The notes beneath the pieces are model-generated. The model had not been told where the DNA came from and searched no databases. It saw only the letters and a list, made by a program, of their open reading frames with translations. From IMG/VR virus record IMGVR_UViG_3300042486_000145, positions 1 through 25,512 of that record: 25,512 nucleotides of DNA; one strand, given 5' to 3'. Both the position numbers and the translations under genes were made by a program. How positions within the stretch are numbered: position 1 is the stretch's first letter; each line of letters starts with the position of its first letter. This stretch comes from a virus. Positions 1 through 22,206 of the stretch are shown one piece after another.

Positions 1-3000
1 TTCATCAACTCATCAAGTGTCACCTTACCAGTTAACTTATGTTTCTTTAAGAATTCTGTATCAAAGGCACTGATATAATACTCATCTTCTCCAACCATAG
101 TAATTTGATTGGTGTTTATTAATATATCAATAGTTTCCTTTGACATATTATCAGTAAAATCTTTTACAGAAGAGTTTATAGCTTCTCTATTCTTAGAAAT
201 ATAATCTTGTATAGCATCATATGTTTCTCCATCTTTAATCATTGATTCTATTGTTTCAACAATATTTTCTGGAAGAACATCTTTCATGATTCTAAGTTCT
301 TGAGACTTAGCTCTTTGGTAAAGATTTTGTGTTCTATCTTCTAATGCTAAATTAATTTCATCATTTAAATAATTACTATAAATGTTATAAACTTGATTCA
401 AATGTTTTCCTGATATAACATCATCCATAGAAATAACATTACCTAAGTTCATCATCCATTCTGTAGAACTATCTCCAGGAATAAGAATGTAGTAATTGCC
501 ATTTATGTTTTGATTTATCTCTTGTACAAATCTTTCTCCTCTAGATAATCTAGCTGTAGATTTATCTTTTCCAGATAGTTGATTCTTGGTTCCTTGAATA
601 TATCCTACGTTTATAGTAGCTATTCTTTCTCCTTCTTCATTAAAGAATAATCCTCCTTTTTTTAACACTTCACTCCCTTTAGAATATACATCATTTAATT
701 GAGGCAGTTTCTCTAAAAGTTCATCTAGTGTTGTTGATTCGTTAAATGTATTTTCAAAATAAGAAGGAGCATTGTTTTCTGAGAATGCACCAATACGTTG
801 ACCCTCTACACCAAAATAAGTAGAGTCTTGATTAGGATTATTAATTTGAGTATAAAGAGTGGCTAATGTTCTTAATGGTCCACTGATGTCTAATCTCTTA
901 GCATCAAATGTCATTAGTTCATTATTCTTTCCTAAATAAGCCTGTATACTATTTACAGCTTTAGCAAATTGTTTTATTTGTGTTATTCTCTCTCCTTTTA
1001 TAATAACTTCTCTATTGCTTAGTCCATTATAAGTTCCTTGATCAAATTCTATCCCTAAATCATTTAAGAATTTAATTTGAGCTGGACCTTTTTTAGTATC
1101 AATCTTAGAAATCCTATCAGTGTTTACTTTATAAACTTTATTCTTTTTATCATAACTAATTAGTCCTCCTTCTGATTTTCCAATAGTTTTCATATTGTCA
1201 ATCCATCCCTGTGAAGTTTTACTAATTGTTGTAAATATATTTGCAGAGCCTGTATACACATCTCCTTCTTCAGAAACATATTGAATTAATGCTTCAGGTT
1301 TTTGTCTAGAGAATGTATTAAAGAATTGTATAAACAATCTCCAATCTGTATCTATACCAAATGTATCAAAGTCAAATGTGTGTGTAACTAAGTTTCCTCC
1401 TAGAGCAGTGAACAATGAAAGGTAGTTTGAGTCTTCTTTTGCAAGATCTATAAACTTTTTAGTGAATTCTGCAGGATCATTTGTGTTATGTAACTTATCT
1501 AATAATGTAGCAAACACTCTGTTAAAGTTTAGTATCTTATAACCTTCATCTGCACCAAGTTTAGACATCTTTGCAGGAGGAACAACTAATGTTGTTCTAG
1601 GTTCCTTCTTTGATTGATTAGATGCTTCTCTTTCTGATAGTGTAGAAAGTAAAAACTTAAGAGCTCCTGTAGAATTCTTTTTCCAATCTATAGAAAAAGT
1701 GTCTGGAGCATAATCTCTTGAATTAGCATTCTCATCATTAATAGAAACCACTTCATCAGCATTGAATGTAATACCAAGAGTTCTTAAAAAGTTAATAGAC
1801 TTTTTAACAAGTTCATTATATCTTTCTTCTCCTAAGTATTCTATTTCTCCAAGTTCTTCATATTCTTGTCTAACTTGAGAGAACACTTCTTCTCCTGTTT
1901 GTGCTAAAGGATTAAACAATAATTCTTTCTGTCCATCTCTGAATATAATACGCTTAACTTGGAATACCATATCTTGTATGTATCCATTTGTTTGCTCTTC
2001 TGTAAGCCCTTCTATGGCTCTATATTCAGGAGCTAATGTCTTTGCTCTCTCTGATAATACAGTCTCTTTAAACTTACCAGAATCAATTGCTTTAAACAAT
2101 TCTTCTTTCAAAGAAGGTTTAGTAACAAAGGATTTAAAGAAATCCATTATTCTTTTAAACAAATTACGAACAGCTTCTCCTAATGATCTAGCAGGAAGTT
2201 TACCTAATCTAAAATCAGTAAAGTCATCAGCTATTCTTTCTTTAGCTTGTTTATCTGTAGCATCAATATATGCTATTTTCTTACCTGATTGTCTATCTGT
2301 AAATTCTCCTTTTTTATTTCTGAACTCCTCAAGTAAATTGTTCTTCTCAGTTTCTGTTAAAAAGTCAGCATAGATAGCTTCAAAGATTTCATGATATTCT
2401 GTACCTCTTAGTCCATTTTTAAAAAACTTAGCAATACCATCTTCAAATACACCCCAAGCTTTTTCTCCATTGTGCATAGTGACTAATCTCTCTAATATTT
2501 CAAAAGGAATAAAAGGAACATTCTTAGCATGCCATTCTTTAAATATTTCTAATTCAGAATTAGTTATTCTGTCAGAAATATCCTTACCCACTTCTCTGTA
2601 TTCACCACTATCTCTCTTTTTCCTTGTAGTAGGTTTAGTTTCTAAAGCAGCAAGTTCTGCGTTATACTTAGCATTGATTTGTTGTGTCTTAGTAATATTT
2701 GTAAAATAGAAATAACTTTCAAAATTAGTAAAATCTTTACTTCCTTTAAACTTTACTCCATATTTAGAAACTGCATCTACTTCAACTTCTGTATCTGTTT
2801 CATTGTCTTGTCTTGCTCCTTTGAATTGTGTCCAGAAGATACCTCTATCTCCTTTTCTAGCTGTTCTTAAACCATTAGCTTCTCTCTTTAATTCTTCTTG
2901 TCTTCTCCTTTCTATATCAGCTTTTTTATCAGAAACTATAGGAGCTTGTGAAGGAGCTACAGGAGCAGCTTGTTGAGTTTCTAATTCTCTTTTTAAAGTT

Positions 3001-6000
3001 TGTTCTATTGCTGCTTCAAAATAAAGCTTAACCTTGTCTTCATTTAGTTTAGCATCTATTACTGCAATTGCTTCAGGAGATTGTCCTTGTTTAAGAGCAT
3101 CATCAATAGTTTTAATCTTCTGAGGATCTGTAGCTATATTTTGTATAGTATCATTAGTTTGAGCAGTTACAGAAATTTCTCCTGTTTCAGATAACGTTGC
3201 TGTAAATAATACATCTCCTGACTTTAACTTAAAAGTTTGAGGAGTGGATGTATTCACTTCATATTCTCCAATTTTATTCTTGTCTTGTACAGGAGCTGGC
3301 TTAACTTCTTTAACAGGCACTTCACTATATGGAAGAACATCCTTATTTGTTATGTAAGCGTATTTTTGTTTGTATGAATTTGAGTTATCTGTTGGTTTGG
3401 TAGTGTGTGTAATTAATGGAGTGTCTCCTACAGATCTAGAAGATCCATCAGGATTCTTACTAGACAATAAGAATGACTGATAGTTAGGCCAAATCACTTG
3501 TGTTAGATTTCCATCTTTATCAGCTACATATTCTGTAAACTTTTTAGATGTTCCTTCTTTAAGTGTTGCATTGTTTATGTTAACAAATGCTCCTTTTCTA
3601 TCTATAGAAGGATCTCCTAATAAAACATCTAATATCTCTTGTTTACTTTCTTCAATTTTAGATAGAGGAAATGATTTATTTCCAATTCTAAATGTCATTG
3701 TATTAGTGTCTATTCCTATTTGACTAGGTTTAGTTGTATCTCCTTTAGATCTCCAAGATAAAACATTTTCTAAAAATTTAACATAACCATAATTAGGTTT
3801 TACAAGTTTACCTGCAGTGGACTTAGCAATCAAATCTTTAGCTAATGCATTCATTACACTGAATACATTATTAGCTTGTTTGTTTGTAAGTTTCTTGTTA
3901 TTGGCAAAATCTAAGAGATCACCATATCTAATTAGTGTTGTACCACTAGGAAAAGATAATGTTTCTCCATCATGAACTATCTTACCTGTTGTTACAACTT
4001 CTAATAATCCATCATGGTTAGCAATTATCTGTTCTCCATTTGGACCAAGTATATCAGACATATGATTGTCTTCATATACACCATTAACTTTAGGTTGATT
4101 TGCAATACCTCTTGATATAGCAAATGGATAAGGTGTATATCCCTTTTCTTCAAATTGTCTTTGTCTAAATATCTTATATGCTTCTAAAGCTATTTCTGCT
4201 TCTAGTTCTTGACCAGCTCTTACCTTTGAAAATCCACCTGCTGTAAATAAACTAGCAGATGTCATTGTTTGAAAAACAACATTATCAAGTATAGTTGGAG
4301 ACTGTTCTCCCACCTTACTTAGTTTCTCTCCTTTTTCATTAACAAAGAAATCTCCTTCAGCTGTTTGTGTAATAGCCACTTGAGCCATAAACTTTTGATT
4401 AACATCACTTTCCATTTCTGGTAAAGCATCTGTTAAATTTAGATTATAAGAAAGCTGTATAATACCATCAAGGCCTAACTCTTTTGCATTAGCATCAGTG
4501 ACAATAATAACTTTTATCTTATTTCTATTCTTAAAGAATTTAAAATTGTTTAAGAAGTTTCTAGCTCTCTTAATGTGTGGAGTGTTATTAGTTTCTTCAC
4601 TTGCTTTATCTTCTGAAGGAGAAGTGGTAGATAAAAATAATCTGTCTACATCTTTAGCTTTACTTTCAGTACCAACAACTTCCCCTGGTTCAGGAGAAAC
4701 AGATTCAACAGAACTTGCTGTAGGAGCTAGTTTAGCCAGCTCTCTATCAAGAACTTCTTTTTGAGCTACTAATGTCTCTTGAGCTATTTTTTCTTTTTCT
4801 ATTTTTTCTAATAAAGATTTAGCATCATTATTAAATTCTTTCTCAACATCATTAATAAGATCTTGATCATCTAAACTATTTATAAATTGTAATCTATCTT
4901 CAGGATTTACTGTTGCTAATTCTTCTTTATATTTAGAATATTCTTCTTTGTTTAATACTGTATCAATTGATTTATTTAATATATCAGTTAGTTCTTGAGA
5001 TGCATTCTCTGTATCAGAGATGCTATAGTTCTTAAATTCATTTGGTGTAAGGAATTTAATTTTACCATTAGGAAGTCTCACCTCAAACTCACCACCTAAA
5101 GTTTTAGATAATACAGTAATTTTGGGTGCAAGGTATAACTCACCACCTTCTTTACGTAATGGTTCTTTTAAGGAATATTCTTTACCTATTTTAAGTTCAG
5201 CATTAACTATTTTAGTTTTCTTTTCTCCCTCAAGTTTTTCTTTTTGTTTTACTACTGCAGGAGAAGTGTCTATCTTTTCATCAGCACCATATCCTCTGTC
5301 ATAGGTATAATTTAATGGACTCTTTTTAATATCATCATACTCTTCTATGAATAACTTTCTACGAAGAGAAAGTTCAATTACGTCTGATAGTTGAGTTTTA
5401 AGTTCATCTTTAACATCAGAAGTTACATCTAATTTATTAATTTGTGAAAGAGCTTCTTCTGTAGCTGTCTTATTTGATTTACCATCTAATATAATACCTT
5501 GTAGTATATCCATTGTAGATACACCTGCTTGAGCTAATCCAATATTAACTTGAGGAATACGTAAGTCATAATTAGCAATCTTACTAGAAGCATATACTAA
5601 TTTATCAATCACATCATCAGAATACTTTCTTAATTGTTTTCCATCAGGACTTAAAACAGGAGCACCTTCTGCATCTGTTAACATCTCTCCAGAATATCTT
5701 AAGTTAAGTGCTCTATATAATTGTTCTGTATTTTTAGCTGTATTTTCAATACTAGAAATTCTTTGTTGAAAGGAAGAGGAGGTATCATTAATATTAGCTA
5801 ACCCCTGTTCTTTTAAAGAAGCTAGTCCTTGATCAGTAACACTTGTTTGTTTTAATTCTGCTAAATCATCCATCACCATATCAAACCTACCATACTTAAT
5901 ACGAGGAGTTAAATAGTTATGTACTAAATCAGCTTTTATATCTTTTGCTTCTAGTTCATCTCCAGAAACAATTGCATCTTGTTGTTGTTTTTGTAAAGTT

Positions 6001-7652
6001 ATTCCTCTGTTTGCAGAAGATAGTCTATCAATGAACGCTTCTTTGAATGTTGGAGTAGAATTAAGAGAATTGATAAATTGTTGAGTGTTACCAGCAACAG
6101 CTTTACCTTGTATAAACTTTCCCTTAGCTTGCATTAATCCTCCAGTGATACCTCCAAGGATTCCTCCTTCAATACCTTCTTTAGAAACTAATGCTCCTAC
6201 ATCTTTACCTAATTCATCTTTACCAAATAAACCATAAAGAAATCCATCAGTTAATATATCAGCATCATTAGATTCTCTAGACTTATTGAAGTAGTTATTA
6301 GTACCCACTTGCAAAGCATACTGTCCAATCTCTTGTCCAGCTTCTTTAGGATCAAATACATACTGTCCTACTTTTTTTGTTTTCTGATATAGTTTACCAA
6401 ATTTAGTTGCAGGAGTTTTAGCAGCATATACACCTCCTTTTAAAACTACATCATCTGCTTGTCCTACTAAACTATTTGCAGCTTGCTTACTTGCTCTATA
6501 AGAAGATCCCATTAAATATGGAAGTTGAGCAAATTCTGTAACAGTTAATAATGATAAGTTACCTAGAAAAGAAGTTTTACCCACCTTTTCTGCTTCCATG
6601 TTAATACCTTCTAATATACTTCCAGTAGGTTCTTGACCATAGTTTTCTAATTTATATTTTTCAATTAAATTATTTCTAAATTCATTAGCTGTTTGTAAAG
6701 CTTCAAAGGAAGCTTCCCCTGCAGAAGAATAAGCAGCAACAGCTGTACGTCTAGCAGTGTCATTAATAGTAGCAAATAGATTAGTTGTCTTTGCAAGTTC
6801 TGCTAGTCTTGAAGACTTAGCAGTGATGTCTGCAATAGAAGAAACTCCTTTATCTAATATAGCAGCAGCTTCAACATTTTTAGCAGCTGAAAAAGCTCTT
6901 GCACTATTTCTTAGTATAGGTGTGAATAACTTAAAAGCTTGAGAAGATCTTGATGCATTTGCAAGAGCAGCAGTAGCAGAACCCAAACCTCTTCCTGCAA
7001 CACCAATAGCAGCATTGGCAATGTTACCACTAACCATTGCTCCTACAGCATATCCACTATTTTTAATTAACTTATCAAATAGAAAGTTAGCAGTCATCCA
7101 GTTATCTGTAGAATACCAATTTGATTCTTTCTCTACATCAGAATAATAATTTGGAAGATATTCTTGATCCACTTTATTATTCCATTTATCTAAATTTCTA
7201 AGTCCTTCATTATCCCATATGTCAGCAAGTCTTCCAGTAAAGGATGCACTCACTGCACCACCAAGCATAGCAAAGCCTCCAGCAATTGTTGTAGCTGCAA
7301 GATTAGCTCCTTTTAAAATACCATTAACTCCTTTTGATAAAGTGCTTTGGTTATAAGAAACATAATCCTCTTGATTAGAAACTATAGGATTAAATTTATC
7401 ATATCTCTGATTTGCTTTTAAAGTGGCATCTGTAACAAAAATACCTTTCTCTTTAAAATTTGCACGTTTAGATAAATTGTTTAATATATCATATGCATCA
7501 TCAGTATTATTCTTTTGTAAAGTGGTGTCACTAAAATCACTTCTTCCTACATCTATTCTTGGTGCAGGAGTGGCTTCATTTAGATCTACTCTTTCCATAG
7601 GAATAGAACTATCCTTTATAATAGATTGAAGATTTTTATCAAAATCTGGCAT
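1..7652 (-). CDS. Giant crAss-like virion (cargo) protein, C-terminus beyond window
   Basis: The frame is open from the ATG at 7652 to the left edge: I read all 2550 complete codons and found no stop. It starts 11 nt after the previous stop. Residues about 114-144 and 196-232 are Gly/Ala-rich hydrophobic stretches that could insert in membranes. Blocks such as SAGEASFEAL, the EAGQEIGQYAL region and KDVGALVSKEGIEGG (all within the first 500 residues) match what I know of giant crAss-like virion proteins. Around residue 1754 lies GTEYHEIFEAI, a zincin-like HExxH motif whose last His is Glu. Known crAss-like phages carry giant virion proteins here, some being RNA polymerase subunits (phi14:2 gp66). 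I saw no DxDGD polymerase motif in the visible part, so polymerase function is not shown. It has no cysteine codon at all. A packaged, ejected protein is the best inference. Confidence 0.8.
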   Translation of the reverse strand, partial: MPDFDKNLQSIIKDSSIPMERVDLNEATPAPRIDVGRSDFSDTTLQKNNTDDAYDILNNLSKRANFKEKGIFVTDATLKANQRYDKFNPIVSNQEDYVSYNQSTLSKGVNGILKGANLAATTIAGGFAMLGGAVSASFTGRLADIWDNEGLRNLDKWNNKVDQEYLPNYYSDVEKESNWYSTDNWMTANFLFDKLIKNSGYAVGAMVSGNIANAAIGVAGRGLGSATAALANASRSSQAFKLFTPILRNSARAFSAAKNVEAAAILDKGVSSIADITAKSSRLAELAKTTNLFATINDTARRTAVAAYSSAGEASFEALQTANEFRNNLIEKYKLENYGQEPTGSILEGINMEAEKVGKTSFLGNLSLLTVTEFAQLPYLMGSSYRASKQAANSLVGQADDVVLKGGVYAAKTPATKFGKLYQKTKKVGQYVFDPKEAGQEIGQYALQVGTNNYFNKSRESNDADILTDGFLYGLFGKDELGKDVGALVSKEGIEGGILGGITGGLMQAKGKFIQGKAVAGNTQQFINSLNSTPTFKEAFIDRLSSANRGITLQKQQQDAIVSGDELEAKDIKADLVHNYLTPRIKYGRFDMVMDDLAELKQTSVTDQGLASLKEQGLANINDTSSSFQQRISSIENTAKNTEQLYRALNLRYSGEMLTDAEGAPVLSPDGKQLRKYSDDVIDKLVYASSKIANYDLRIPQVNIGLAQAGVSTMDILQGIILDGKSNKTATEEALSQINKLDVTSDVKDELKTQLSDVIELSLRRKLFIEEYDDIKKSPLNYTYDRGYGADEKIDTSPAVVKQKEKLEGEKKTKIVNAELKIGKEYSLKEPLRKEGGELYLAPKITVLSKTLGGEFEVRLPNGKIKFLTPNEFKNYSISDTENASQELTDILNKSIDTVLNKEEYSKYKEELATVNPEDRLQFINSLDDQDLINDVEKEFNNDAKSLLEKIEKEKIAQETLVAQKEVLDRELAKLAPTASSVESVSPEPGEVVGTESKAKDVDRLFLSTTSPSEDKASEETNNTPHIKRARNFLNNFKFFKNRNKIKVIIVTDANAKELGLDGIIQLSYNLNLTDALPEMESDVNQKFMAQVAITQTAEGDFFVNEKGEKLSKVGEQSPTILDNVVFQTMTSASLFTAGGFSKVRAGQELEAEIALEAYKIFRQRQFEEKGYTPYPFAISRGIANQPKVNGVYEDNHMSDILGPNGEQIIANHDGLLEVVTTGKIVHDGETLSFPSGTTLIRYGDLLDFANNKKLTNKQANNVFSVMNALAKDLIAKSTAGKLVKPNYGYVKFLENVLSWRSKGDTTKPSQIGIDTNTMTFRIGNKSFPLSKIEESKQEILDVLLGDPSIDRKGAFVNINNATLKEGTSKKFTEYVADKDGNLTQVIWPNYQSFLLSSKNPDGSSRSVGDTPLITHTTKPTDNSNSYKQKYAYITNKDVLPYSEVPVKEVKPAPVQDKNKIGEYEVNTSTPQTFKLKSGDVLFTATLSETGEISVTAQTNDTIQNIATDPQKIKTIDDALKQGQSPEAIAVIDAKLNEDKVKLYFEAAIEQTLKRELETQQAAPVAPSQAPIVSDKKADIERRRQEELKREANGLRTARKGDRGIFWTQFKGARQDNETDTEVEVDAVSKYGVKFKGSKDFTNFESYFYFTNITKTQQINAKYNAELAALETKPTTRKKRDSGEYREVGKDISDRITNSELEIFKEWHAKNVPFIPFEILERLVTMHNGEKAWGVFEDGIAKFFKNGLRGTEYHEIFEAIYADFLTETEKNNLLEEFRNKKGEFTDRQSGKKIAYIDATDKQAKERIADDFTDFRLGKLPARSLGEAVRNLFKRIMDFFKSFVTKPSLKEELFKAIDSGKFKETVLSERAKTLAPEYRAIEGLTEEQTNGYIQDMVFQVKRIIFRDGQKELLFNPLAQTGEEVFSQVRQEYEELGEIEYLGEERYNELVKKSINFLRTLGITFNADEVVSINDENANSRDYAPDTFSIDWKKNSTGALKFLLSTLSEREASNQSKKEPRTTLVVPPAKMSKLGADEGYKILNFNRVFATLLDKLHNTNDPAEFTKKFIDLAKEDSNYLSLFTALGGNLVTHTFDFDTFGIDTDWRLFIQFFNTFSRQKPEALIQYVSEEGDVYTGSANIFTTISKTSQGWIDNMKTIGKSEGGLISYDKKNKVYKVNTDRISKIDTKKGPAQIKFLNDLGIEFDQGTYNGLSNREVIIKGERITQIKQFAKAVNSIQAYLGKNNELMTFDAKRLDISGPLRTLATLYTQINNPNQDSTYFGVEGQRIGAFSENNAPSYFENTFNESTTLDELLEKLPQLNDVYSKGSEVLKKGGLFFNEEGERIATINVGYIQGTKNQLSGKDKSTARLSRGERFVQEINQNINGNYYILIPGDSSTEWMMNLGNVISMDDVISGKHLNQVYNIYSNYLNDEINLALEDRTQNLYQRAKSQELRIMKDVLPENIVETIESMIKDGETYDAIQDYISKNREAINSSVKDFTDNMSKETIDILINTNQITMVGEDEYYISAFDTEFLKKHKLTGKVTLDELM

Positions 7653-7663
7653 ATTAATTTATT

Positions 7664-10240
7664 TTAAAGATTTCTAATAGTTTGTTTATCCTTTTCACTA
7701 ATCAAAGGATTGTTAAGATACAACTGTAAAGCTTGAGATTTTGTCATTTGGTTTAAAAAAGTAATAGCTTGATCTCTATTTACAGGTTGACTATCTAACT
7801 TTAATGGAACTACTCCAGTAGGAGTTTTTAATTGTAAACTAATATACTGTTTAGCATTATCACTTTTATTCCAAACTAAATCTGCCTTAATATCTAAATT
7901 TGTATTAGGCATTTGAGATCTACCAAAATATGCATCTGCATACTGTCCTGTAGGATTAGTACTTCCATTTCCTAAGTATTGTGCTTTAACAACATCTTTA
8001 TATTGTTCGTTTGGTTCATTACGATCATTTATTGGAAGTTGTCTAGCTTCTGAACTCTCTAATGGAATAGTTACTTCTTCTCCTCCCTTTCCCAATATTA
8101 GAAAAGTTTTATCTCCTTGTACTAATTTTTTATATATGATCTTTTCTCTATCATCACTACTGAGCCATGTTTTACCAGTGGTAACTTGACTCTTACTTAA
8201 TTCTTTACTACCTCCTTCACCTTCATATCTACTCAACACTGCATCAGCAATACCTTCCCAAGATCTTCTTGCTATATCCCCATCTCCACTGCCAAAAGTG
8301 ATAGTGGATATTCTAGGTACATAACTTCCATTACGTTCTAATAAAGTGGATTGAAGAAGTTCTTCTTTTGCTTTTGCAACTTTAGATAAACCAGAAGTTA
8401 CCACTCTAGATATTTCGTAATACTTACTTTTATTATTTGCATCTAATCCTAAGCTAAGAAGTTTTTCTTTTTCTGTAAGAGGTCTTCTAAATCTTTCAGA
8501 GGTGGAACCTAAATAAGCTCCTTGTGCTCCTCCATAACCAGGAGTTTGAGTTAATTCTCTATTAGCTACATAGGTAGCTATTTCTTTAGCAGTGAAGTTA
8601 ATAGCTCTTCCTGCTTTATCTTTTACAGTTACTCCTGGAAGACTAGCTATACTATTATAAACTCCTTCTTCTGCTCCTTTAAATTTATTATCTACTTCTT
8701 TGTATATAGACTCTTTAGCTGCATTTATTCTATTTGCCTTATTCTGACTATCTATAATAGCATCCACTTCATCTCTCCATTCAACAGGTATTGCTTTCTT
8801 ACTATTACTATCTCCTATAACATACCAATTAGCATCCCCATTTTTATATTTTTCAATAGCAGCTTTAATTTGACCTGCATTAGTTCCAGGAATACCTTGT
8901 ATCATTTTAGTAATACCAGCATTAGCAGAAGCATCATACATAAGTTTATCACTTTCCATTGCTGACAAAGGATCTTTAACATTAGTGTCAGTTCCTTTAT
9001 AAGTTTCAAACCCACTGCTTATACCATTAAGTTCAATGTTTTGTTTTTGTATTTTAAGGTCAGTTTCTATTTTATTTAAATTATAACCTCTTGTATCATT
9101 AAATTCTTTCCAATTTTGAGCTCTTACAGCTAAAGCCTGATTAGCACGAGTGATAGCATAAGTCTTTTCCCAATGCTGTGCATTTAATATAGGATTTTCA
9201 AGAAGGTTTTCTTTATTATTTTCCCAAGCATAAGCATTGGCAAATTGTGAAATAGCACCATTTTTATAAATAGTAGATTTAGCTAAAGATGGATTAGCCA
9301 TAACTAACTCTAATTCTTCTTTTAATTCAGAATTTAATTGTGAATTTTTATTTTCAAGACTTTCTATTATTCCTTGAAGTTGTTTTTGTTTTTCAGGATT
9401 TGAAGTACTTAGTCCCACCTCTCCTTGTAACTTTTGAATAAGTGAGTTATTAGATTCAATCTGAGAATTAAATTTAGTGTTAGAATACACTGCTAATTTT
9501 TCAGGAGTGTCATATCCCCTAAATTGATAATTAGCATTTATAGATAATTGATTTTGTTCATCAGGAGTTAAAGAAGCTCTAATTGCATTTTCAATCTTTG
9601 CTGCAGAAACTGTTTCCTTACTTATTCTCTGCATTGCTTCTGCAGTCTTTTGTCTGTTTACAGATCCATCTGCATTTGTTACATAAGGAATATCTTGTTC
9701 ATTTAAATCAGAATGTAGGCCTTTGAAAACTTCTAACCATTTTTTATCTACATCAATATATTGAGTATATCTATCTGAGAAAGAAGCATTAACATCATCA
9801 GCATTTAGATATGCATTTGCTTTTTGTGAAAAATCATAAATATTAGCTTGAGAAGATTTACCCTCTCCAATTGCTTTTTCCATCTCTTGAGCTTGCTTTC
9901 TATACCAAGCTGTAGACTTCACTGCATTTTGAATAGTGGCATCTTTACCAATCTGTTTAGTCATCCCCCCTACAGAATTAACTAACTGATAGTTAGAGAA
10001 ATCTCCAGCTGCTACAGTTTTTAACTTAGATCCTAACTCGTTTAATTTAGACTGAAGGTATTGCTGTTGTTTTTCATTTGCAATATCTAGTCCTGCAATG
10101 TTATCAAAGTTAGTTTGAATTTTCTGAAGACCCTCGTCATAACGTTTTTGTTTTTCCATACCAACTTGAACCATTGCCTCTACAGGCAACTGTTGGATGT
10201 ATGGATTAAACTTTGGGGCAATATCTGTATATGAAGCCAT
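7664..10240 (-). CDS. crAss-like helical cargo/virion protein, 858 residues
   Basis: The N-terminal 110 residues (PVEAMVQVGMEKQKRYDEG near 19-37, then AAGDFSNYQLVNSVGGMTKQ near 77-96) resemble a protein family that sits between the muzzle and the giant genes of crAss-like phages. The sequence is mostly helical and rich in Gln, Asn and Lys, with a likely coiled coil at about 254-315. The C-terminal third looks more mixed, with beta-type stretches. There is no signal peptide, no clear membrane segment and no cysteine. The family has no enzymatic motif that I can see. The ATG at 10240 fits because a Bacteroidota-type promoter lies just upstream and would leave a leader of about 10 nt. The giant gene follows after 11 nt, so the two are probably co-transcribed. 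The role as packaged or ejected protein is inferred from position and family. Confidence 0.75.
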   Translation of the reverse strand: MASYTDIAPKFNPYIQQLPVEAMVQVGMEKQKRYDEGLQKIQTNFDNIAGLDIANEKQQQYLQSKLNELGSKLKTVAAGDFSNYQLVNSVGGMTKQIGKDATIQNAVKSTAWYRKQAQEMEKAIGEGKSSQANIYDFSQKANAYLNADDVNASFSDRYTQYIDVDKKWLEVFKGLHSDLNEQDIPYVTNADGSVNRQKTAEAMQRISKETVSAAKIENAIRASLTPDEQNQLSINANYQFRGYDTPEKLAVYSNTKFNSQIESNNSLIQKLQGEVGLSTSNPEKQKQLQGIIESLENKNSQLNSELKEELELVMANPSLAKSTIYKNGAISQFANAYAWENNKENLLENPILNAQHWEKTYAITRANQALAVRAQNWKEFNDTRGYNLNKIETDLKIQKQNIELNGISSGFETYKGTDTNVKDPLSAMESDKLMYDASANAGITKMIQGIPGTNAGQIKAAIEKYKNGDANWYVIGDSNSKKAIPVEWRDEVDAIIDSQNKANRINAAKESIYKEVDNKFKGAEEGVYNSIASLPGVTVKDKAGRAINFTAKEIATYVANRELTQTPGYGGAQGAYLGSTSERFRRPLTEKEKLLSLGLDANNKSKYYEISRVVTSGLSKVAKAKEELLQSTLLERNGSYVPRISTITFGSGDGDIARRSWEGIADAVLSRYEGEGGSKELSKSQVTTGKTWLSSDDREKIIYKKLVQGDKTFLILGKGGEEVTIPLESSEARQLPINDRNEPNEQYKDVVKAQYLGNGSTNPTGQYADAYFGRSQMPNTNLDIKADLVWNKSDNAKQYISLQLKTPTGVVPLKLDSQPVNRDQAITFLNQMTKSQALQLYLNNPLISEKDKQTIRNL

Positions 10241-10253
10241 AGTTTTTAGGGAT

Positions 10254-10316
10254 TAGCAAATTTAACTTAAAGTATTATATGTTACAAGTATAATAACTGT
10301 TTTAGGTAATTTGCTA
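10254..10316. repeat. Nested inverted repeats in the 88-nt intergenic gap
   Basis: A perfect 9-bp inverted repeat has arms TAGCAAATT at 10254-10262 and AATTTGCTA at 10308-10316, 45 nt apart. A second 7-bp pair lies inside it: TATTATA at 10273-10279 and TATAATA at 10289-10295. The outer left arm overlaps the promoter -7 box. This could be an operator or a weak long-loop hairpin. The stems are AT-rich and without a strong terminator shape, and chance is possible in AT-rich DNA. Confidence 0.4.
10256..10287 (-). promoter_or_regulatory. Bacteroidota-type promoter for the 858-residue and giant genes
   Basis: On the minus strand there is TTG (plus coordinates 10285-10287), exactly 20 nt, then TAAATTTGC (10256-10264). 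This agrees with the described Bacteroidetes primary sigma pattern, TTG/TTTG about 19-21 nt before TAnnTTTG. Transcription would begin near 10249, giving a leader of about 10 nt before the ATG at 10240. A host-type promoter here would allow separate expression of the last two cargo genes. It overlaps one arm of an inverted repeat. Confidence 0.55.
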
Positions 10317-10328
10317 TAATTGAATTAA

Positions 10329-13295
10329 TTATAAATTTTTGATTGCTTTAATAATAGAACCATTTCTAGCAGCTTTATTGGAAGTTTTTTCTTTGCTAGT
10401 TTTTGCTTCTAATAAAGCTTTGTATTTACTAAGTTCATCAGGAGTGGCACTTGCAATCATTTCATCAAAGTCTACTAAAGGATTCATGTTAATAGCTCTT
10501 CCAGATTTATCAAACCTGTAGTTGTACATATTCTCCATAACACCTAATTGTCTATTCTCAAGTTTATTTTGAGCATATTTAGAAGCAACAGAATTTAAAG
10601 CTTCTTGTGTTGTAGCCTTTGTAGCACTCTTAGCTGCTTCTTGTCTCTGTTGTTGAGTATCATAAGCTTGTAGATTTTGCAACTGAGCTTGATTTAATGT
10701 ATTTATATTAGCTGCATATGTTTGTGCTTTGTTTCCTTGGTTGATTCTCATTTGTTCTCCTAGTACTTTGTTCTTAGCCATAGTTGCTTGAGCATATATA
10801 GCAGCTAATGCTTCTGGATTATTTCCAGCAAGTCTTTGTGCTTCTCTAGTCTGAGCAGTGATTTCATTTAATTGATCTTGAAGAGATATATCGTATGTAG
10901 TTTGTAGTTGTGGTTGGAATGTTTGTGCTTGTACAGGTTCTAACTGATTGTTAGATAATGCATAAAACTCTCCTGATAATTGTCTTGGGTCTAAATCTTC
11001 AACATCAGATGGTCTAAGAAAAGGAAGTGCTTGATTAAATGCACTCATTCCTTGTTTTAACCAATCAAACTTTTCCACTGGTTCATCAGGAGCATATAAA
11101 GCATTACGTGTAGCTGATGATCCTGTAGTTTTTGGTAAAGCTATTAGTGGATCATTCATTGATCTATAAGGAGTTTTTGTAGCTGCACTTAATGGAATAT
11201 CTGTTAGTCCTTTAACATTAAATGCTGCTCCTAATCTATCATCAAGTTGTACATCCTCACTACCATATAACTCTTTATTTTTAGACTTAATAAGTTTTGC
11301 TCTATTAGGATCTTCTAATAAAAACTTTTGAAATTCTTTATTACCTTTTCCTTTAAATCCTAAATTTTCTGCAATCTTATCCCACTGTTGAGCATCATAT
11401 ATAGATTTAGTTTTTACACCAAGCTTATCTTTATTTCCTGCCCAAGGAGTTAGATTATACTTACTAACATATTTTCCTTTTTGAGCCTTAATAGATGTTC
11501 CCATTTTAGCTTCTTTTATCTTACCTTGTGCAAGATCATCAGCTATTAATCCATACTCTTCAGCTGTATCATTAATAGCTCCTTGCAGAGCTGCAGCATC
11601 TTGTTTCTTTCCAGCAATATCTTTAAGTTTCATATTACTACCCATTAAGTTTGCTTGAAGAGCAGACATCTTTAATTTATCAAATGAATTATTAACATCA
11701 AGGTTGTCTAATGTATCTATAGACTTATCTATAATCTTATTTTGTTTAGCTTCAATCTTAGATAAATCATTTACATAGTTTTTAAACTTCTGATTCTTTA
11801 GTTTAGGATTTCCTAACATGTTAGCACCTTCTTTATTAATTTTAAGATTACCAAATACAACCATATTATTTTCACCTGTACCACCATCTTGTAATTTAAC
11901 AGCAGGTTCACCACCTTCCACTTCTACAGGACTTTGTCCATAAGATATAGGCATACCACCATTTTCATGTGAAGGTCCTCTAAACATCACTGTCTCTCCT
12001 CCATCTGGAAGATAAGGATTGCTTGATATAGGTTCTGCTTCTCCTCTATACACTTGTAACTCTCCACCCATAGCATAAGTTTGCATAGCTCTTTCACTAG
12101 GAGGTGTGTAACTTTTTAGATGTCCACCAGCTCTTAACATATCTGCATCAGCAGGAGGTTTTAATAAATCTTTTACATCATACTCTCCAAATTTAGCAAT
12201 CACTTGTGGCTGCCAATCATGACTAACCCATCCACCATCTTCCATCACATTATCAAACTGTTGAGGAATATAGTTACCCATCATACCTGCTATATTACGA
12301 TTAGATATGTCATCATATTTTTCCATATTCCTACCACTCTTATCTACTAAACTTCCTAAAGCTTGTCCTGCAAATTTTCCAATAGCACCTCCTACAGGTC
12401 CTCCAAAATATGTTCCTGCAGCTTGACCAATTCCTCCACCAATCTTAGAGCCTGCACTAGGACCTCTTCCTTTATTAATAAGCTGGTTACTAAGGTTTCC
12501 TAAAGCTTCACTTGTTCCTTTTTGTGACATAGCTTCTCCAAATCCTCCTTGATTAATAGCTGTAGAGAATCCATTTTGAGCCATAGATATTCTACCACCA
12601 TGATAAAAAGCTTTTATTTGATCACTATCATTTAATGGTTCATATCCAAGATCATCATATAGAGTGTTGGGAGCATATGTATTTTGTATTTCTGTTGGAT
12701 TACCTCCAATCATTGTTCCATTTTTTGCAGAAAGAATATTAGTTCCTACACCATAAGAAGGAGATAATTGATCTGGTTGAATAATAGTATCTTCTGGTCT
12801 AGTGTAATAGTTTTTTAATGGTTGTCTTCTTTGACTAGCAACTGCATCAGCTTGCACTCCTGTTAATAAAGAATTTGCTTTAGCTTCTTTAACAGCTTTA
12901 TTCTGACCTTTAATCATAGACACTCCTTCTATAACATCCATTCCTGCTTGAAGATATCCACTAGCATCTCCTCCTTTTCCTCCTACACCTTGAGCAGCTT
13001 CTTGAGCAGTTTTAGCGTTAGGGTTAATTCCTCCTATAGCAGTGGTTGCTGCGTTATATTCAGGTTGACCATATACTGATCCAAATCCATATCCTTCTTC
13101 TGTACCATTCTGTGCTTTAGGTGGATTACCAAAATCACTTAATTGATGAAGTTGTTTATTAACCATAGAAGCACCCATAGCAGCTTTCTTAAGAGCTTTA
13201 CCATGCACTTTCATAAATGCTTCTTCACTTGGAAACTTCTTGTAAAATGCTGCTTCAGATTTTACACCTGCTAGTTTTAATATTTGATCTTTCAT
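10329..13295 (-). CDS. crAss-like cargo protein with glycine zipper, 988 residues
   Basis: The N-terminus (GVKSEAAFYKKFPSEEAFM at 10-28, then HGKALKKA) is a module I recognise from Bacteroidota phage virion proteins near the muzzle gene. Residues 281-316 form a glycine zipper (GGGIGQAAGTYFGGPVGGAIG and on), a pattern typical of membrane-inserting helices. Residues 439-468 contain RGPSHENGGMPI followed by VEVEGGEPAVKL, a conserved block of unknown function. Short Asn-Gly motifs recur: AQNG at 61-64 and 239-242, AQKG at 604-607, ARNG at 976-979, and DGGW/AGGH/MGGE at 353-412. The region from about 780 to 930 is Gln/Ala-rich and helical. There is no cysteine in 988 residues. It starts 6 nt after the preceding stop. 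Role as an ejected protein that may help form a channel is inference from the zipper and the position. Confidence 0.75.
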   Translation of the reverse strand: MKDQILKLAGVKSEAAFYKKFPSEEAFMKVHGKALKKAAMGASMVNKQLHQLSDFGNPPKAQNGTEEGYGFGSVYGQPEYNAATTAIGGINPNAKTAQEAAQGVGGKGGDASGYLQAGMDVIEGVSMIKGQNKAVKEAKANSLLTGVQADAVASQRRQPLKNYYTRPEDTIIQPDQLSPSYGVGTNILSAKNGTMIGGNPTEIQNTYAPNTLYDDLGYEPLNDSDQIKAFYHGGRISMAQNGFSTAINQGGFGEAMSQKGTSEALGNLSNQLINKGRGPSAGSKIGGGIGQAAGTYFGGPVGGAIGKFAGQALGSLVDKSGRNMEKYDDISNRNIAGMMGNYIPQQFDNVMEDGGWVSHDWQPQVIAKFGEYDVKDLLKPPADADMLRAGGHLKSYTPPSERAMQTYAMGGELQVYRGEAEPISSNPYLPDGGETVMFRGPSHENGGMPISYGQSPVEVEGGEPAVKLQDGGTGENNMVVFGNLKINKEGANMLGNPKLKNQKFKNYVNDLSKIEAKQNKIIDKSIDTLDNLDVNNSFDKLKMSALQANLMGSNMKLKDIAGKKQDAAALQGAINDTAEEYGLIADDLAQGKIKEAKMGTSIKAQKGKYVSKYNLTPWAGNKDKLGVKTKSIYDAQQWDKIAENLGFKGKGNKEFQKFLLEDPNRAKLIKSKNKELYGSEDVQLDDRLGAAFNVKGLTDIPLSAATKTPYRSMNDPLIALPKTTGSSATRNALYAPDEPVEKFDWLKQGMSAFNQALPFLRPSDVEDLDPRQLSGEFYALSNNQLEPVQAQTFQPQLQTTYDISLQDQLNEITAQTREAQRLAGNNPEALAAIYAQATMAKNKVLGEQMRINQGNKAQTYAANINTLNQAQLQNLQAYDTQQQRQEAAKSATKATTQEALNSVASKYAQNKLENRQLGVMENMYNYRFDKSGRAINMNPLVDFDEMIASATPDELSKYKALLEAKTSKEKTSNKAARNGSIIKAIKNL

Positions 13296-13301
13296 AATGT
13301 C

Positions 13302-14402
13302 TTAATTGTATTTGGATAACCATCCACCATTTTCTTTCTTTGGTTTTTTAGGGTTGTCAACTGTAAGTCTACCTTTTTGTAATTGATTAACAATCATTTT
13401 ATTACGAGTATTTTGATTTAATCCTGGTATAGAACCAATTAAACTACCTTGATAGTTATTCTTGATATCCATTAATAAACCTTCGTTATTTGGATTCATT
13501 AATTCATAACCTCCACCTAATATATTTGCTCCAGCAATTCTAAGTGCTCTTTCTAAATTTGGAGAATAATCTCCAATAAATTTTGGTATAGGTAATTTTG
13601 ATGCAACAGATGCAGCAGCAGCAGTGTGTCTTACAGCATCAGCTGGTCCACTTGTTTTTTCACCATAATCTAACCCTTTTGATTTAGCAAGATCAGCAGC
13701 TGTATTTAATGCACTTGCAGGCATAAGATAGTTACCCATCCCAATCATTTTATTTATAGATCTTCTAGTAGTTCCTGTAACATAATCAGGTTCACTATAA
13801 CCATCCTGAGCCATGGGAATCTCTGTAACAGCCTCTCCTTTGTAAGTATAGTCTTGGTCAGGGTACATCATTTGCATGTCTCCTATGTCAGATATACCTA
13901 ATACAGGATAGTTTACATCCTGCATAGTTATTTTGTTGGAATTAATTTTTGTTATTTCTCCTGGATGGGCCCATTGTCCCATATCATCTTCTATAATAGA
14001 ACCATCTCTACTGATAGTCTTTGGTTTCCAATCTAGTCCTTCTTGGTAGAATTTCATCTCTTGTCCATTCTGTGCAGAAGCTTTTGTCTTCTTGGTATAT
14101 TTACCATTAGCAGGAGCAGAACCTTGTGTACGTGCGTATGTGAATCCTACAGAACCAGGAAGACTTCCTCCCATTGCCATTGTTCCTCCCCATGCACCAT
14201 TGTAATTAAAGCCTTTGTCTGTTAGACCTGCCATAGTTCCTTCTATGCCATTCTGTGCATCAGGGGTGTTGTATTTACTAAGCCATCCACCATTCTTCAT
14301 TGTGTTATCTTTTCCACACTGATGGCAAATGTACATATCCTTCTTACTGGAATCTGATTTATTCCAGGACCATCCACAAGTACATGTAACTTTACTAGCC
14401 AT
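13302..14402 (-). CDS. Zn-ribbon virion protein with DUF6973-like C-terminal region
   Basis: Residues 7-29 hold CTCGWSW...CHQC, four cysteines (C7, C9, C26, C29) suited to a zinc ribbon. They are the only cysteines in the protein. The motif NGGWLSKYN follows at 37-45 and recurs as the last nine residues (358-366). AQNG occurs at 49-52 and 110-113, and AQDG at 198-201. Residues 250-323 show GPADAVRH (252-259), GGGYEL (296-301) and MDIKNNYQG (311-319). These echo the DxxRH / HE / MDxxNNxxG pattern I associate with the uncharacterised DUF6973 family, here with Tyr in place of the His before Glu. The start codon shares one base with the upstream stop (TAATG). The position among cargo genes suggests a virion protein. 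An enzymatic role, for example cell-wall hydrolysis, is possible but not shown. Confidence 0.7.
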   Translation of the reverse strand: MASKVTCTCGWSWNKSDSSKKDMYICHQCGKDNTMKNGGWLSKYNTPDAQNGIEGTMAGLTDKGFNYNGAWGGTMAMGGSLPGSVGFTYARTQGSAPANGKYTKKTKASAQNGQEMKFYQEGLDWKPKTISRDGSIIEDDMGQWAHPGEITKINSNKITMQDVNYPVLGISDIGDMQMMYPDQDYTYKGEAVTEIPMAQDGYSEPDYVTGTTRRSINKMIGMGNYLMPASALNTAADLAKSKGLDYGEKTSGPADAVRHTAAAASVASKLPIPKFIGDYSPNLERALRIAGANILGGGYELMNPNNEGLLMDIKNNYQGSLIGSIPGLNQNTRNKMIVNQLQKGRLTVDNPKKPKKENGGWLSKYN

Positions 14403-15271
14403 TATTTGAAAGAGATTTGAGATGGAACAACAATGAATTGACTTACTATATGTATCTCAGAATTGTTATCTAATATGTGTCTTATTTTTAAATCTTTAGC
14501 TCTGAATGTATCTTTCTTGAATGACATGGTTGTGTAATTCATATTAGCTTGATTTATAATTTTATCTATAGATAAAGACTCGCAACTTCTTACAAATAAA
14601 GGAACACTCTTATCTTTTACTAATGACCAGAATGTATTGTACTGATAGAAGTTATCACTCTTAGTATATGTAATAGTTTTACTATCTGTGTTATATTTTG
14701 GATATTGTAAATATGCACTTAAGTTATTAATTGGTTTAGGAACTAATTCTAAAATACCAGAACTCTGTTGTCCATTGTAAACAACAGCTTTGTTAAACCA
14801 ATAGTTATCTATTTCCACTTTATCACATTCGTCAGAAACAAAATCAACATCACGAAGATATCTATACACTTTGGAATAGTCTTTTACATTTTGTAATATC
14901 TCATCTTGATATTGATATGCAAAAGGGTATTCAATAATATAAGGTTCTACATTGTTATAGAAATAATTATATATAACAGGATTTTTTAAATGTTTCCAGA
15001 TACATGCATTACTACTAGGAACAAATTTTGTACTAGCAATTTCACTTGGATAAACAGTACCAACAGGAAAATTGCGTTTGTTCTTACATTTTCCTAAAGA
15101 TTCAATAGATATAATAGTTACATCATTTGCTACTGAATATCCCATCCCTGCTATCAATTCATTCTTAGTAACAAGAGCATCTATAACATCTCCATTCTGA
15201 GCATTAGTCACTTTGAATGGACCTGCTTGAATAGAGCTTGATTTCAATTTTATGTATATAGTCTTTGACAT
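14402..15271 (-). CDS. Tail-associated accessory protein with GPF-type N-terminal domain
   Basis: The function of this 289-residue protein is not recognised. Residues about 3-65 run IYIKLKSSSIQAGPFKV, then a Gly-rich turn, then DVTIISIES and a Cys-containing end. The same order is seen in the N-terminal domain of the fibre-like protein at 23586-24173, so I infer one shared beta-rich fold. The rest (about 70-289) is rich in Tyr and Asn and looks like a structural, beta-type protein. It lies 4 nt after the muzzle stop and overlaps the next start by one base, which ties it to the tail/cargo operon. A decoration, adaptor or muzzle-bound protein is plausible. It has four scattered cysteines, unlike the large genes downstream. 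Confidence 0.65.
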   Translation of the reverse strand: MSKTIYIKLKSSSIQAGPFKVTNAQNGDVIDALVTKNELIAGMGYSVANDVTIISIESLGKCKNKRNFPVGTVYPSEIASTKFVPSSNACIWKHLKNPVIYNYFYNNVEPYIIEYPFAYQYQDEILQNVKDYSKVYRYLRDVDFVSDECDKVEIDNYWFNKAVVYNGQQSSGILELVPKPINNLSAYLQYPKYNTDSKTITYTKSDNFYQYNTFWSLVKDKSVPLFVRSCESLSIDKIINQANMNYTTMSFKKDTFRAKDLKIRHILDNNSEIHIVSQFIVVPSQISFK

Positions 15272-15275
15272 CTTA

Positions 15276-18200
15276 TTATAAAATGAGAGTGGTTGTGGTA
15301 GTGGTTGTTATTTCTGGTTGCTCCTCAGCAACTCCTGCTAAACTACAATCAATTTCTGTAACTGTTCCTGCTAAACTACAATCTAGAGCAATAGTGGTGG
15401 TTGTAGTAGTGGTAGGTTGTGGAACCACTTCAGCTACAATAGCGTCAATCTCACTACAACAATCATTAAGTCCTGAATAGAAGAAATTATTTTCAGCTAC
15501 ATACCAATTAGGTAAATAACTATGGAATGAAATCCAACTCTTTGTATTAAGGTTAAATGATACTGACCAAGATTTGTTACAGAAGTAATCAAGATCTGTA
15601 AGATACACTTGCGTTAATATCTCCACTTCATTCACTATTTCTTTTATATAGTATTCTTTTGTAATTGAATCATATATAATGTTATTTGTTTTTGGAATAT
15701 AGTCAAGCTTTGTAATAATTATTCTATCATACTTACTATCAAATACACCATGTAATCCTACACCAGTGAAATGATTATCTGTATCTACTTCTGGGAAGTA
15801 TTTTATAATCTCAAAAGCTAAATGATCTGTAAACCATCTATTCATACCAGAACCAAAACCTGTTAAATCTGTAGCTTGGTTACCAGCAATTAAGAACACT
15901 TGTCCTCTCTTAGCATCTATTGTTATTTGTCCTTGTGGGATCTTTAATAACATTTTGTTTTGCGAACCTACATATCCAAGATCTGTTTCTGCAAAATCAA
16001 TTGGAGGAGAACTTCTGAATAATGAATCATTACCTATATAAGCAGCTTGTGGATTACTTGTGTTGATTGTTAATAAAGTGTTATACAATAAACTCTTATT
16101 ATCAAATCTAGCAAGAACAGCTTTATTCTCAATACCATCTAATGATGTAAGACTGCCATAGTTCTGTGGAAAATCAAAATAAGAAATAGCTCTATAAATT
16201 AACCAATTATTTACTATAGTGGTGACATCATTTATCTGAGCATCAGAATAAATTGCTCTAAATGGAAAAACTGTTTTACATAGTTCAGGAGTCCAGTTAA
16301 TAGGAAGATGACTAAAAAAGTTTTCTGTGTTTTGTTTAGAGAATGTAGTGTTATAGTAATATGTATTATCTTGAGCAATAGAAACATTACTTTCTTGTAC
16401 CCAATCATCAGGTATATCTGTACTAACATGAGGCCAGAAATCTCCTTCTCTGTTATTAAAGGCTTGTCTTAAGTCTACATTATATCCTGATTCACAATAG
16501 AAATAAGGAATACCATAAGCAAACAAATACATCTTACCATCATAGAAAGTTCTTCCTGGATTACTTTCAGGAGTTTGACTATTAGGACAATCTAGATTGT
16601 GAGCTTTAATTGATATAAAGTTTCTTAGATTTATACCATCTACAGAAACATCACTAAGAACAGATCTTGCTGAAAACCAATATTCAGGATAGGCAACATT
16701 TCCTATCTCATCATAGTATATATCAGAATCATCAGGAGCTCCCACTCTATTATCTATAAAGAATGGAAGTTTAGTTTTAAAAGCAAACTTGCTAATAAAT
16801 GTATCACCACCAAACACTGTATCATACACTGGTGCAAGAATGGGTGTAATATCTCTTTGGAATCCAGTATCTATTGTATCATACGAATAGATTTGTCCCC
16901 ATTGATTTATAAATTGATTCTTTAATGAAGCATAATAAGAAACAACAGAAGTGGAAGATACTTCTTCAGGTTTGCTACAATCTTTTTCAGATAATACAAA
17001 TCTTGAATCATCTGTAACCATAGGTATTCCACTAGGAGCTATAGATGGTGTTTTATCTGGAAATGGTAAAGGAGGTTTTTCTTCAACAGTCTTTAGATAA
17101 ACAGAAGATTCTCTTTGCCAGTTGTTTATATTTTTATCATCACCAACACTTTGCACTCCTGGAATTAAATATTGAGCAATATCAAGTTCTCTTTGTTTAA
17201 TACCTAATACACCATCTGCACTAGTAGCTGCATTATCAATATACCCACTATAGTCATAACTACCTATTGAGTTAAATGAATATGCATAGTTACGTCTAGT
17301 GATACCATTAATATAAATAGTTAAATATGATTGATATGCTGCAAATAAAACAGAAGCATCTAATGATCCTGTTATAGAAGCAATATCAGTAGAACTCTTT
17401 AATGCATCTTCTTGTGCTTCCTTACTAATCATTTTATAAAGAGCATTCTTTTTCACTTGAACAAAATGAGCTCTACCAGCTCCAAACATTACATTTTCAA
17501 GTTTAAGAATATCTCCTAAGAATGGTTGACCAAAAGAAGTTTCTGGAGAGTTAAATACATGTCTATATTTAGAACCGTCTGCATCAAATCCATCTAAATT
17601 CTTAGGAACACAAATATCATAACCTACAGATCCCACTTTTGTAATAGTATAATTTTTTGCTCCTACTACCCATTCAGGAAAAGTTAATGACTTATATTGA
17701 GTGGATCCTGTCATCACCACTAAAGTTTTATTTGGAGGCTGAGTGCAACAATCAGCTGATGGAGTGGGATCCTTAGTACAATAATCACAAAGAGAAGGAT
17801 AGGGTACAGTTCCACAAGGAGTTCCAGGATCTCCATTTATAGTTGGGAAATATATATTAAAACTTGCAGAACTAAAACTTCCTACAGTGATGATATCATA
17901 TATATCATATGTATGACACTCAAAACATCCTTTACCACTAATAATTCTTGGAGAAGGAAAATCAAGACAACAGAAGTTTAAAATTTCTCCTACAGATGTA
18001 GCTTGTTTTGTAACAATTGTATTTGTATAACAATCTATATATTCAACTGTGAATATACCACCACTGAGTTCTGTAACAGTTACACTAAAGTTTCTACATG
18101 TAGTATTACCACCATCTTTTGCATTTGCTGTATAAGCGTTATTCTGAGCTAGTAAGAATGGATCTACAGAAAGATCATTATAAGGATAGTTAGGATAGTA

Positions 18201-21477: not shown

Positions 21478-22206
21478 TTATCTTGTTGGTGGTACATTAG
21501 GAGCTTGACCATCTAGATTATCTGCTGAAACATCAGTTTTTAATTGGAAGAAGGTAGATAGAAGTTTTTGTGATGTTAAATCTAACACTTGCTTCTCTAA
21601 ATATCCTGGAAGAGAAAATGGTTTATCTAATGGATTCATACACCAATCTTCATTAGTTGGTCCACAACCTCCACATCCAGATTCAGGATACATCACTTCA
21701 TTAGGAACTTCTTGTTCAAAACAAGCAGCAAGTCTAACTGCTTGAAGCAGTGGATTATTTACATATAGATAATCATTTAATATCCAATAGTATTCTTCCT
21801 TCTTTATAATTGGAAGCTTTATTAGATTTGTATATCTATTGATAGTGATTTCTTTTAGTTTAGTTCCTGTGCCTCCCATAGCATTAATAGAATAAACTCC
21901 TTGAATAAGGTATTGATAGTTTCCTTCAGATATACGAGGAATTTTATATCTAGTTCTAGCAACATTGCAGGGATCTTGATAATCACAACATTCAGAAATA
22001 GGAACCTCAATCATTTCAAGACATGGAATAGTAGTGAATAGAGTGCTAGTAGCCCAAAGTTTTCTAAGGTTAGTCTCTCTCTTAATCAATAAGATACTAT
22101 TATTTCTAACCTCAGAAGCAATAGCTCTATCTGTAATCAAACTATCTGTTGATAGGATTTTATGCATAGAACGTATGTCTGAAACTAACTTTCTTAATGT
22201 TGCCAT
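21478..22206 (-). CDS. crAss-like structural protein (probable tail ring), 242 residues
   Basis: Residues 40-110 (LIKRETNLRKLWATSTLFTT, then IPCLEMIEVPISECCDY, then PRISEGNYQYLIQGVYSINA) match a well-conserved crAss-like structural family placed just before the IHF-like gene. The family is thought to be part of the tail barrel, which I cannot confirm from sequence alone. It has eight cysteines, grouped as SECCDYQDPC (71-80) and CGGCGPTNEDWC (178-189), suggesting metal sites or disulfides. The start at 22206 follows the phosphoesterase stop by 3 nt. It has no signal peptide or membrane segment. A proline-rich end follows residue 230. Confidence 0.65.
   Translation of the reverse strand: MATLRKLVSDIRSMHKILSTDSLITDRAIASEVRNNSILLIKRETNLRKLWATSTLFTTIPCLEMIEVPISECCDYQDPCNVARTRYKIPRISEGNYQYLIQGVYSINAMGGTGTKLKEITINRYTNLIKLPIIKKEEYYWILNDYLYVNNPLLQAVRLAACFEQEVPNEVMYPESGCGGCGPTNEDWCMNPLDKPFSLPGYLEKQVLDLTSQKLLSTFFQLKTDVSADNLDGQAPNVPPTR

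Follow-up and report, generated by a model that had tools for sequence, protein, structure and literature searches.

Cysteine-poor bodies and paired junction cysteines in the polymerase cargo of crass-like phages: a proposed disulfide-linked train

In the crass-like phage PhicrAss001, mass spectrometry of virions has detected five cargo proteins (gp45, gp46, gp47, gp49 and gp50), whose ejection is believed to proceed in a partly unfolded state (PMC10172136). Interchain disulfides have been described in the tail of this virion by cryo-EM (PMC10172136). The cargo is mostly invisible in the PhicrAss001 maps, and no disulfide has been seen within it. According to the sequence record notes, mass spectrometry also exists for the homologues in phage phi14:2. 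Fusion of crass-like RNA polymerases (RNAPs) to large proteins is likewise already known (PMC10770324).

The pattern described here bears on how megadalton enzymes pass through a narrow phage tail in the right order and number. The word 'cysteine' does not occur in the text of the PhicrAss001 structure paper, which mentions neither cysteine (Cys) depletion nor terminal Cys (PMC10172136), and it is likewise absent from the main review of ejection proteins, the preprint on the structure of the N4 virion RNAP (vRNAP), the PhiM1 ejectosome paper and the crassvirus review. No earlier report of Cys-free ejection proteins or of cargo couplers was found in the open literature, to which the search was confined, and the link between RNAP fusion and terminal Cys appears to be new.

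The cargo block of the window

The window is the whole stretch of viral DNA analysed, 25,512 nucleotides long. Judged from its genes, it holds the ejected cargo block of a crass-like phage, with the Crassvirales-like feature of muzzle and ring proteins adjoining the cargo genes. At one end, on the minus strand (3..7652), lie the N-terminal 2,550 residues of a giant cargo protein, a gp47-like and gp50-like (virion RNAP) fusion with no visible Cys. The gp47 profile matches the N-terminal part of the giant (E 7e-34), and the gp50 profile matches its family (E 2e-46) over alignment columns 2555-3761, beyond the window end. These profile-profile comparisons were made with hhalign without realignment, in order to obtain usable alignment ranges. 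In complete relatives, the gp47 match is N-terminal, the gp50 match lies further on and the next gene matches gp49; the active-site part of the RNAP (DFDxDK) and gp49, both outside the window, were located in these orthologues by profiles and HMMs. On the basis of these matches, the window giant is a natural gp47-RNAP fusion with its C-terminus beyond the window, and constitutes the front part of a polymerase cargo of about 5,500 residues (gp47, RNAP and gp49).

Two further cargo genes follow on the minus strand. The first (7664..10240) encodes an 858-residue protein in the position of cargo protein C2 (gp46), to which no sequence match was found. The second (10329..13295) encodes a 988-residue protein with a segment that may resemble the portal-bound domain of cargo protein C1 (gp45); columns 450-616 of its family profile match columns 486-610 of the gp45 profile with an E of 6e-6 and a probability of only 85%. 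PHROGs, Pfam and the PDB held no useful family for the giant or the 858-residue protein, tblastn with the 988-residue protein gave no matches, and neither did megablast of the tail block against phages.

Beyond the cargo, still on the minus strand, the first Cys-bearing gene (13302..14402) encodes a 366-residue protein with an N-terminal CxC-x16-CxxC motif. Its four Cys (positions 7, 9, 26 and 29) are all present in the orthologues L083, L085 and L088; the motif (CTC...CHQC) is zinc-ribbon-like, and the protein carries NGGWLSKYN at both ends. Next come a muzzle-like protein of 289 residues with 4 Cys (14402..15271, minus strand), whose residues 87-287 align with the C-terminal end of muzzle family phrog_15100 (positions 1586-1781, E 7e-9), and the muzzle itself (15276..20003, minus strand; 1,575 aa), recognized by a family-model match. 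The nearest annotated muzzles belong to Leptolyngbya phage Lbo-JY46, Cellulophaga phages phi4:1 and phi17:2, and csAssE-Sib. Tail ring protein 1 (20012..20986, minus strand; 7 Cys) matches CrAss_Ring_1 (E 1e-9) and tail ring protein 2 (21478..22206, minus strand; 242 aa) matches CrAss_Ring_2 (E 2e-16). Threonine runs occur at or near the C-terminus of the muzzle, inside a 195-residue protein (23586-24173) and at the end of a 102-residue protein (24185-24493).

The initial annotation had reported that the three cargo genes lack Cys altogether, and a recount bears this out: 2,550 codons, 858 residues and 988 residues give 4,396 residues with 0 Cys, where about 22 would be expected at 0.5% and about 78 at the muzzle's 1.78%. 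The Cys-rich neighbours were also counted correctly (28 in the 1,575 residues of the muzzle, 8 in the 242 of ring protein 2 and 8 in the 102-residue protein). The switch that had been placed at the border between cargo and tail is indeed sharp (13295/13302), but the first gene across it is that of the 366-residue CxC...CxxC protein rather than of a tail ring protein. TGT and TGC are plentiful in the remaining two sense frames (21 + 162 in the giant, 8 + 53 in the 858-residue gene and 14 + 64 in the 988-residue gene), so the avoidance concerns the amino acid and not the nucleotides, and an avoidance of these codons at the nucleotide level was rejected. Orthologues retain the absence, with 0 Cys in 45 of 51 orthologues of the 988-residue protein and in 12 of 15 of the 858-residue protein. 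Neither ordinary Cys content in orthologues nor an equal absence in non-virion proteins, the two outcomes named as grounds for doubt, occurred; in the same kinds of genome the non-virion proteins have ordinary Cys content.

Cysteine-poor cargo in other phages

The five cargo proteins of PhicrAss001 contain 7 Cys in 7,478 residues, as against 241 in 20,586 in the other proteins read, and the cargo of phi14:2, cr128_1, phi17:2, Lbo-JY46, FpV4 and csAssE-Sib is Cys-poor likewise. The same holds for most of the DAC15 cargo, the exception being four Cys in its C1 protein. Cys in crass-like cargo stands at 0.096 of its level in the other ORFs of the same loci (outside the gut clade, 0.017% vs 0.56%), and no other residue falls below a ratio of 0.77. 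The residual Cys of C1-like and adjoining cargo proteins lie in close pairs, at 390/398 in crAss001 (L002 41987-44515), 211/219 and 273/281 in DAC15 (L016 41176-43674) and 369/378 in phi14:2 (L008 33983-35245).

Similar depletion is found in other short-tailed phages. The N4 vRNAP has 0 Cys in 3,500 residues and T7 gp15 and gp16 have 0 in 2,065, most orthologues of both being Cys-free too, while P22 gp7, gp16 and gp20 have 0 in 1,309 and phiKMV gp35-37 have 0 in 2,416. T7 RNAP, which is of the same polymerase kind as the N4 vRNAP but is not ejected, has 12 Cys in 883 residues. Tape-measure or putative tape-measure proteins without Cys include lambda H (853 aa; L014 10542-13103), T4 gp29 (590 aa; L022 10878-12650) and P1 Sit (1,140 aa; L007 40988-44410). 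Cys is only mildly low in P1 DarB (9 in 2,255 residues, 0.40%) and T4 Alt (0.44%), and the phiKZ virion RNAP subunits gp178, gp180 and gp80 have 0.34%, 0.41% and 1.34%, respectively; all of these proteins exit via long contractile tails.

Because P1 DarB, the phiKZ subunits gp80, gp178 and gp180, and T4 Alt keep Cys, the proposition that all ejected proteins are Cys-free was rejected, and passage through a narrow tail alone is no cause of the purge. The Cys-poor signature of ejected proteins put forward in the initial annotation thus extends to orthologues and to unrelated short-tailed phages without being universal. The purge accompanies tape-measure proteins and those short-tailed phages whose periplasmic conduit is of their own making, and these few cases suggest that Cys is purged by contact with the periplasm and not by transit of the tube. 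For annotation, this gives the rule that in short-tailed phages the proteins of a Cys-free run are likely to be ejected.

Cysteines at the chain junctions

The number of chains in which the polymerase cargo (gp47, RNAP and gp49) is made varies among crass-like phages from one to four. The layouts are three separate chains, a gp47-RNAP fusion followed by gp49, a single chain of 4,600-5,640 residues, and forms with extra splits. They were compared in 29 relatives of the window giant, 80 more loci from a scan with the gp50 profile, and reference phages, together 83 clusters below 70% identity. Every junction N-terminus (93 of 93) carries a single Cys among the ten residues that follow Met, and 79 of 82 junction C-termini carry one, whereas outer termini have none (0 of 32 N-terminal and 0 of 64 C-terminal). 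Pooled, exactly one Cys is present on 172 of 175 junction termini and on 0 of 96 outer termini, a contrast shown by no other residue. A first count had given 76/77 and 75/77 at junction N- and C-termini against 0/33 and 1/57 at outer ones, with Fisher values of 3e-27 and 4e-34 that overstate the number of independent events, because the clusters are phylogenetically non-independent.

The placement is directional: gp47 has the Cys at its C-terminus only, gp49 at its N-terminus only and the middle chain at both, and the order that the terminal Cys imply is the order of the chains in fused proteins. Fully fused chains, with fusion confirmed by HMM, have 0 Cys in 10 of 11 cases, four of those ten being incomplete at the 5' end. 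Extra splits bring further matched pairs, as in phi4:1 and phi17:2, where chains of 1957, 517 and 1914 residues carry Cys at the end of the first, at position 4 and the end of the second, and at position 3 of the third; L160 and csAssE-Sib behave likewise. Gut lineages with interior Cys (0.26%) retain the terminal pair. On the RNAP tree of the 83 clusters, the RNAP/gp49 fusion state changes at least 5 times; a count of 11 state changes was not relied on, because the label 'gp47 fused', assigned by motif position, was wrong for several long, unfused gut RNAPs. Across the sampled sequences, nearly Cys-free bodies go together with paired junction Cys that are absent on fusion.

Among the 29 relatives, every complete giant has exactly one Cys within its last five residues, and the gp49-like protein that follows has one at position 3-5 in entirely different surroundings; residues flanking junction Cys vary freely in general. 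The closest relative of the window giant (L083; 3,937 aa) ends in ..SSETCK and precedes a gp49-like protein starting MPCK. Since the window stops inside its giant, the C-terminal Cys expected there is out of view, and no coupler Cys is present in the window. In about half of the giants (L083-L111), one further Cys lies in the interior near residue 3,100, some 80 residues before the DFDxDK motif and with no visible partner. A lone N-terminal Cys occurs in an early cargo gene near the muzzle in FpV4 (L026 19853-21649) and Lbo-JY46 (L023 34333-36357), both starting MKKKC, and in a 718-residue ORF of L133; no partner C-terminal Cys was found for these three.

Several apparent exceptions can be traced to the reading of the sequence. 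The cargo genes of L126 and L115 have open frames only if TAG is translated as Gln; the L126 gene for gp47 contains 76 of these codons. Read in this way, L126, one of the three C-terminal misses, obeys the rule (RNAP MSEC...KKLC, gp49 starting MAKSTGC, gp47 ending NCE), and L115, broken under the standard code, gives MVC...KIC, MGNSC and ..DCR. The gp49-like gene of csAssE-Sib (L025 45085-45930, 45830-50000) has a frameshift or insertion in the deposited record, and its upstream piece starts MTSTC. The junction rule thus predicted sequence-reading errors in these cases (L126, L115 and csAssE-Sib), and for annotation a terminal Cys marks a true chain end, while its absence, as in L126 and csAssE-Sib, flags a frameshift or recoded stop. 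L186, with overlapping ORFs, looks like a frameshift inside a giant. The C-terminal misses in L139 and L180 have a Cys 24 and 31 residues from the end. One exception remains: the fused chain of L176 has 4 Cys, of which that at position 3 matches a C-terminal Cys of the preceding chain.

A proposed disulfide coupling, its alternatives and known systems

We consider it likely, from the arrangement of these residues, that the cargo chains are joined head to tail by interchain disulfides into one threadable train, the bodies being Cys-free so that only the couplers pair. After lysis, the terminal thiols would pair as single interchain disulfides, C-terminus to N-terminus, each doing the job of the peptide bond in fused proteins and giving one linear unit with gp47 first and gp49 last. 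Formation of the envelope conduit, as the first step, is expected to fall to the 988- and 858-residue proteins; lacking coupler Cys, these would not be tied to the train. The linked train would then pass down the tail with its chains in order and at a 1:1:1 stoichiometry, and reduction in the host cytoplasm would free the subunits. Cys-free bodies may avoid wrong disulfides during virion storage and during the partly unfolded crossing of the periplasm. The broader reading, that terminal thiols replace peptide bonds, that evolution swaps both freely, that the chains come apart through a redox switch in the cytoplasm of the host and that similar coupling arose independently in epsilon15-like phages, is favoured with some reserve.

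Against the disulfide train stands the anoxic gut setting of gut phages, in which disulfides form less readily. The same termini would be expected if these Cys served homodimer formation or bound a metal, but their loss on fusion would not. The possibility that the terminal Cys serve some other assembly of RNAP subunits (same-chain homodimers, a shared metal site or a linkage confined to the virion core) is doubtful. The geometry would allow homotypic pairing, since the capacity of the cargo zone is illustrated with six copies of each RNAP-associated protein (PMC10172136). Such a role does not account for the one-sided placement on gp47 and gp49 in fused-protein order or for the joint disappearance of both partner Cys on fusion, and a usual zinc site would need more than the single Cys that each side supplies. 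As the whole account, plain avoidance, in which partly unfolded proteins crossing the periplasm shed all Cys and the terminal ones have no common role, is unlikely. It agrees with the Cys-free ejection proteins of T7, P22, phiKMV and N4, with lambda H, T4 gp29 and P1 Sit, and with the lesser depletion of contractile-tail cargo, yet leaves the contrast between junction and outer termini and the loss on fusion unexplained. The earlier suggestion that Cys loss suits unfolding and passage across the periplasm therefore holds for the Cys-poor background layer, where plain avoidance is true, and does not extend to the residual Cys at the junctions.

The two remaining explanations concern the reading and composition of the genes. 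One-base overlaps at many junctions and the TAG-as-Gln loci might point to terminal Cys codons created by overlap, re-initiation, frameshift or stop recoding. However, junction gaps range from -13 to more than 500 bases and are out of frame, the outer termini of the same genes lack Cys, and reading TAG as Gln restores the rule rather than breaking it. In PhicrAss001, cr128_1, L113, L116, L117, L124 and L131, gp47 and the RNAP are encoded on different strands yet keep their matching ends, which leaves no room for an operon or overlap effect; the gene-overlap artefact was rejected on these cases and its probability is negligible. It is also very improbable that Cys scarcity reflects the composition of long helical proteins or AT-rich codon bias. 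The cargo is slightly low in His, Trp and Pro too (0.78-0.82), but the gap between these ratios and that of Cys, the frequency of out-of-frame Cys codons and the contrast between T7 RNAP and the N4 vRNAP tell against it. No equally Cys-free helical non-virion proteins were found in the genomes read, and a general amino-acid bias was rejected.

The disulfide train lends itself to a precise and cheap test, since the junction pattern predicts two disulfide-linked peptides in virions already purified and analysed. For PhicrAss001, the computed gp47-gp50 pair is CNS with CITTNSTIEELAAK (neutral mass 1812.8233; 3+ 605.2817) and the gp50-gp49 pair is ICGANTLYEL with CAIIPQVR (1992.0172; 3+ 665.0130); the homotypic pairs would have masses of 642.1738, 2983.4729, 2189.0384 and 1794.9960. 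If true, the mechanism would offer a natural means of coupling and uncoupling protein cargo for delivery.

Among known systems, the PhicrAss001 cargo (gp45, gp46, gp47, gp49 and gp50) resembles that of the window family in its homologous giant and polymerase subunits, its C1 domain, putatively present in the window family, and the terminal Cys on gp47, gp50 and gp49, and differs in having gp47 and the RNAP as separate chains, which the window family has in one. The virion RNAP block of phi14:2 is also unfused, and has Cys at the last residue of g067, at position 3 and the last but one of g066, and at position 3 of g065. The N4 vRNAP (Schitoviridae) is likewise giant, ejected and Cys-free, but is an unrelated single-subunit RNAP in one chain with no couplers. 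A split N4-like RNAP (L207; 899, 1453 and 1228 aa) has no terminal Cys, so that coupling is not general to virion RNAPs if this split is real. The ejection proteins of T7, P22 and phiKMV share the periplasmic conduit and the near absence of Cys, but are unrelated in sequence and have no matched terminal Cys. The sole Cys of T7-like gp14 (L005, L294-L341) is at conserved position 2, and T7 gp6.7 and many epsilon15-like gp14 also have an N-terminal Cys, mostly at this position.

A second case of coupling is possible, from sequence, in the unrelated epsilon15-like phages. In all 70 gp16/gp17 pairs read (ten clusters at 90% identity), gp16 has a Cys as the sixth or seventh residue counted from its C-terminus, and that of gp17 is residue 5 or 6 (residue 12 if an upstream start is used). 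Unlike in the crass-like cargo, the residues flanking these Cys are conserved as well, which makes the Cys pattern weaker evidence there. Two-chain (A-B) toxins, which bear no sequence relation to the phage cargo, would resemble it by analogy of mechanism only: their chains, held by an interchain disulfide, cross the membrane as one unit and are parted by cytosolic reduction.
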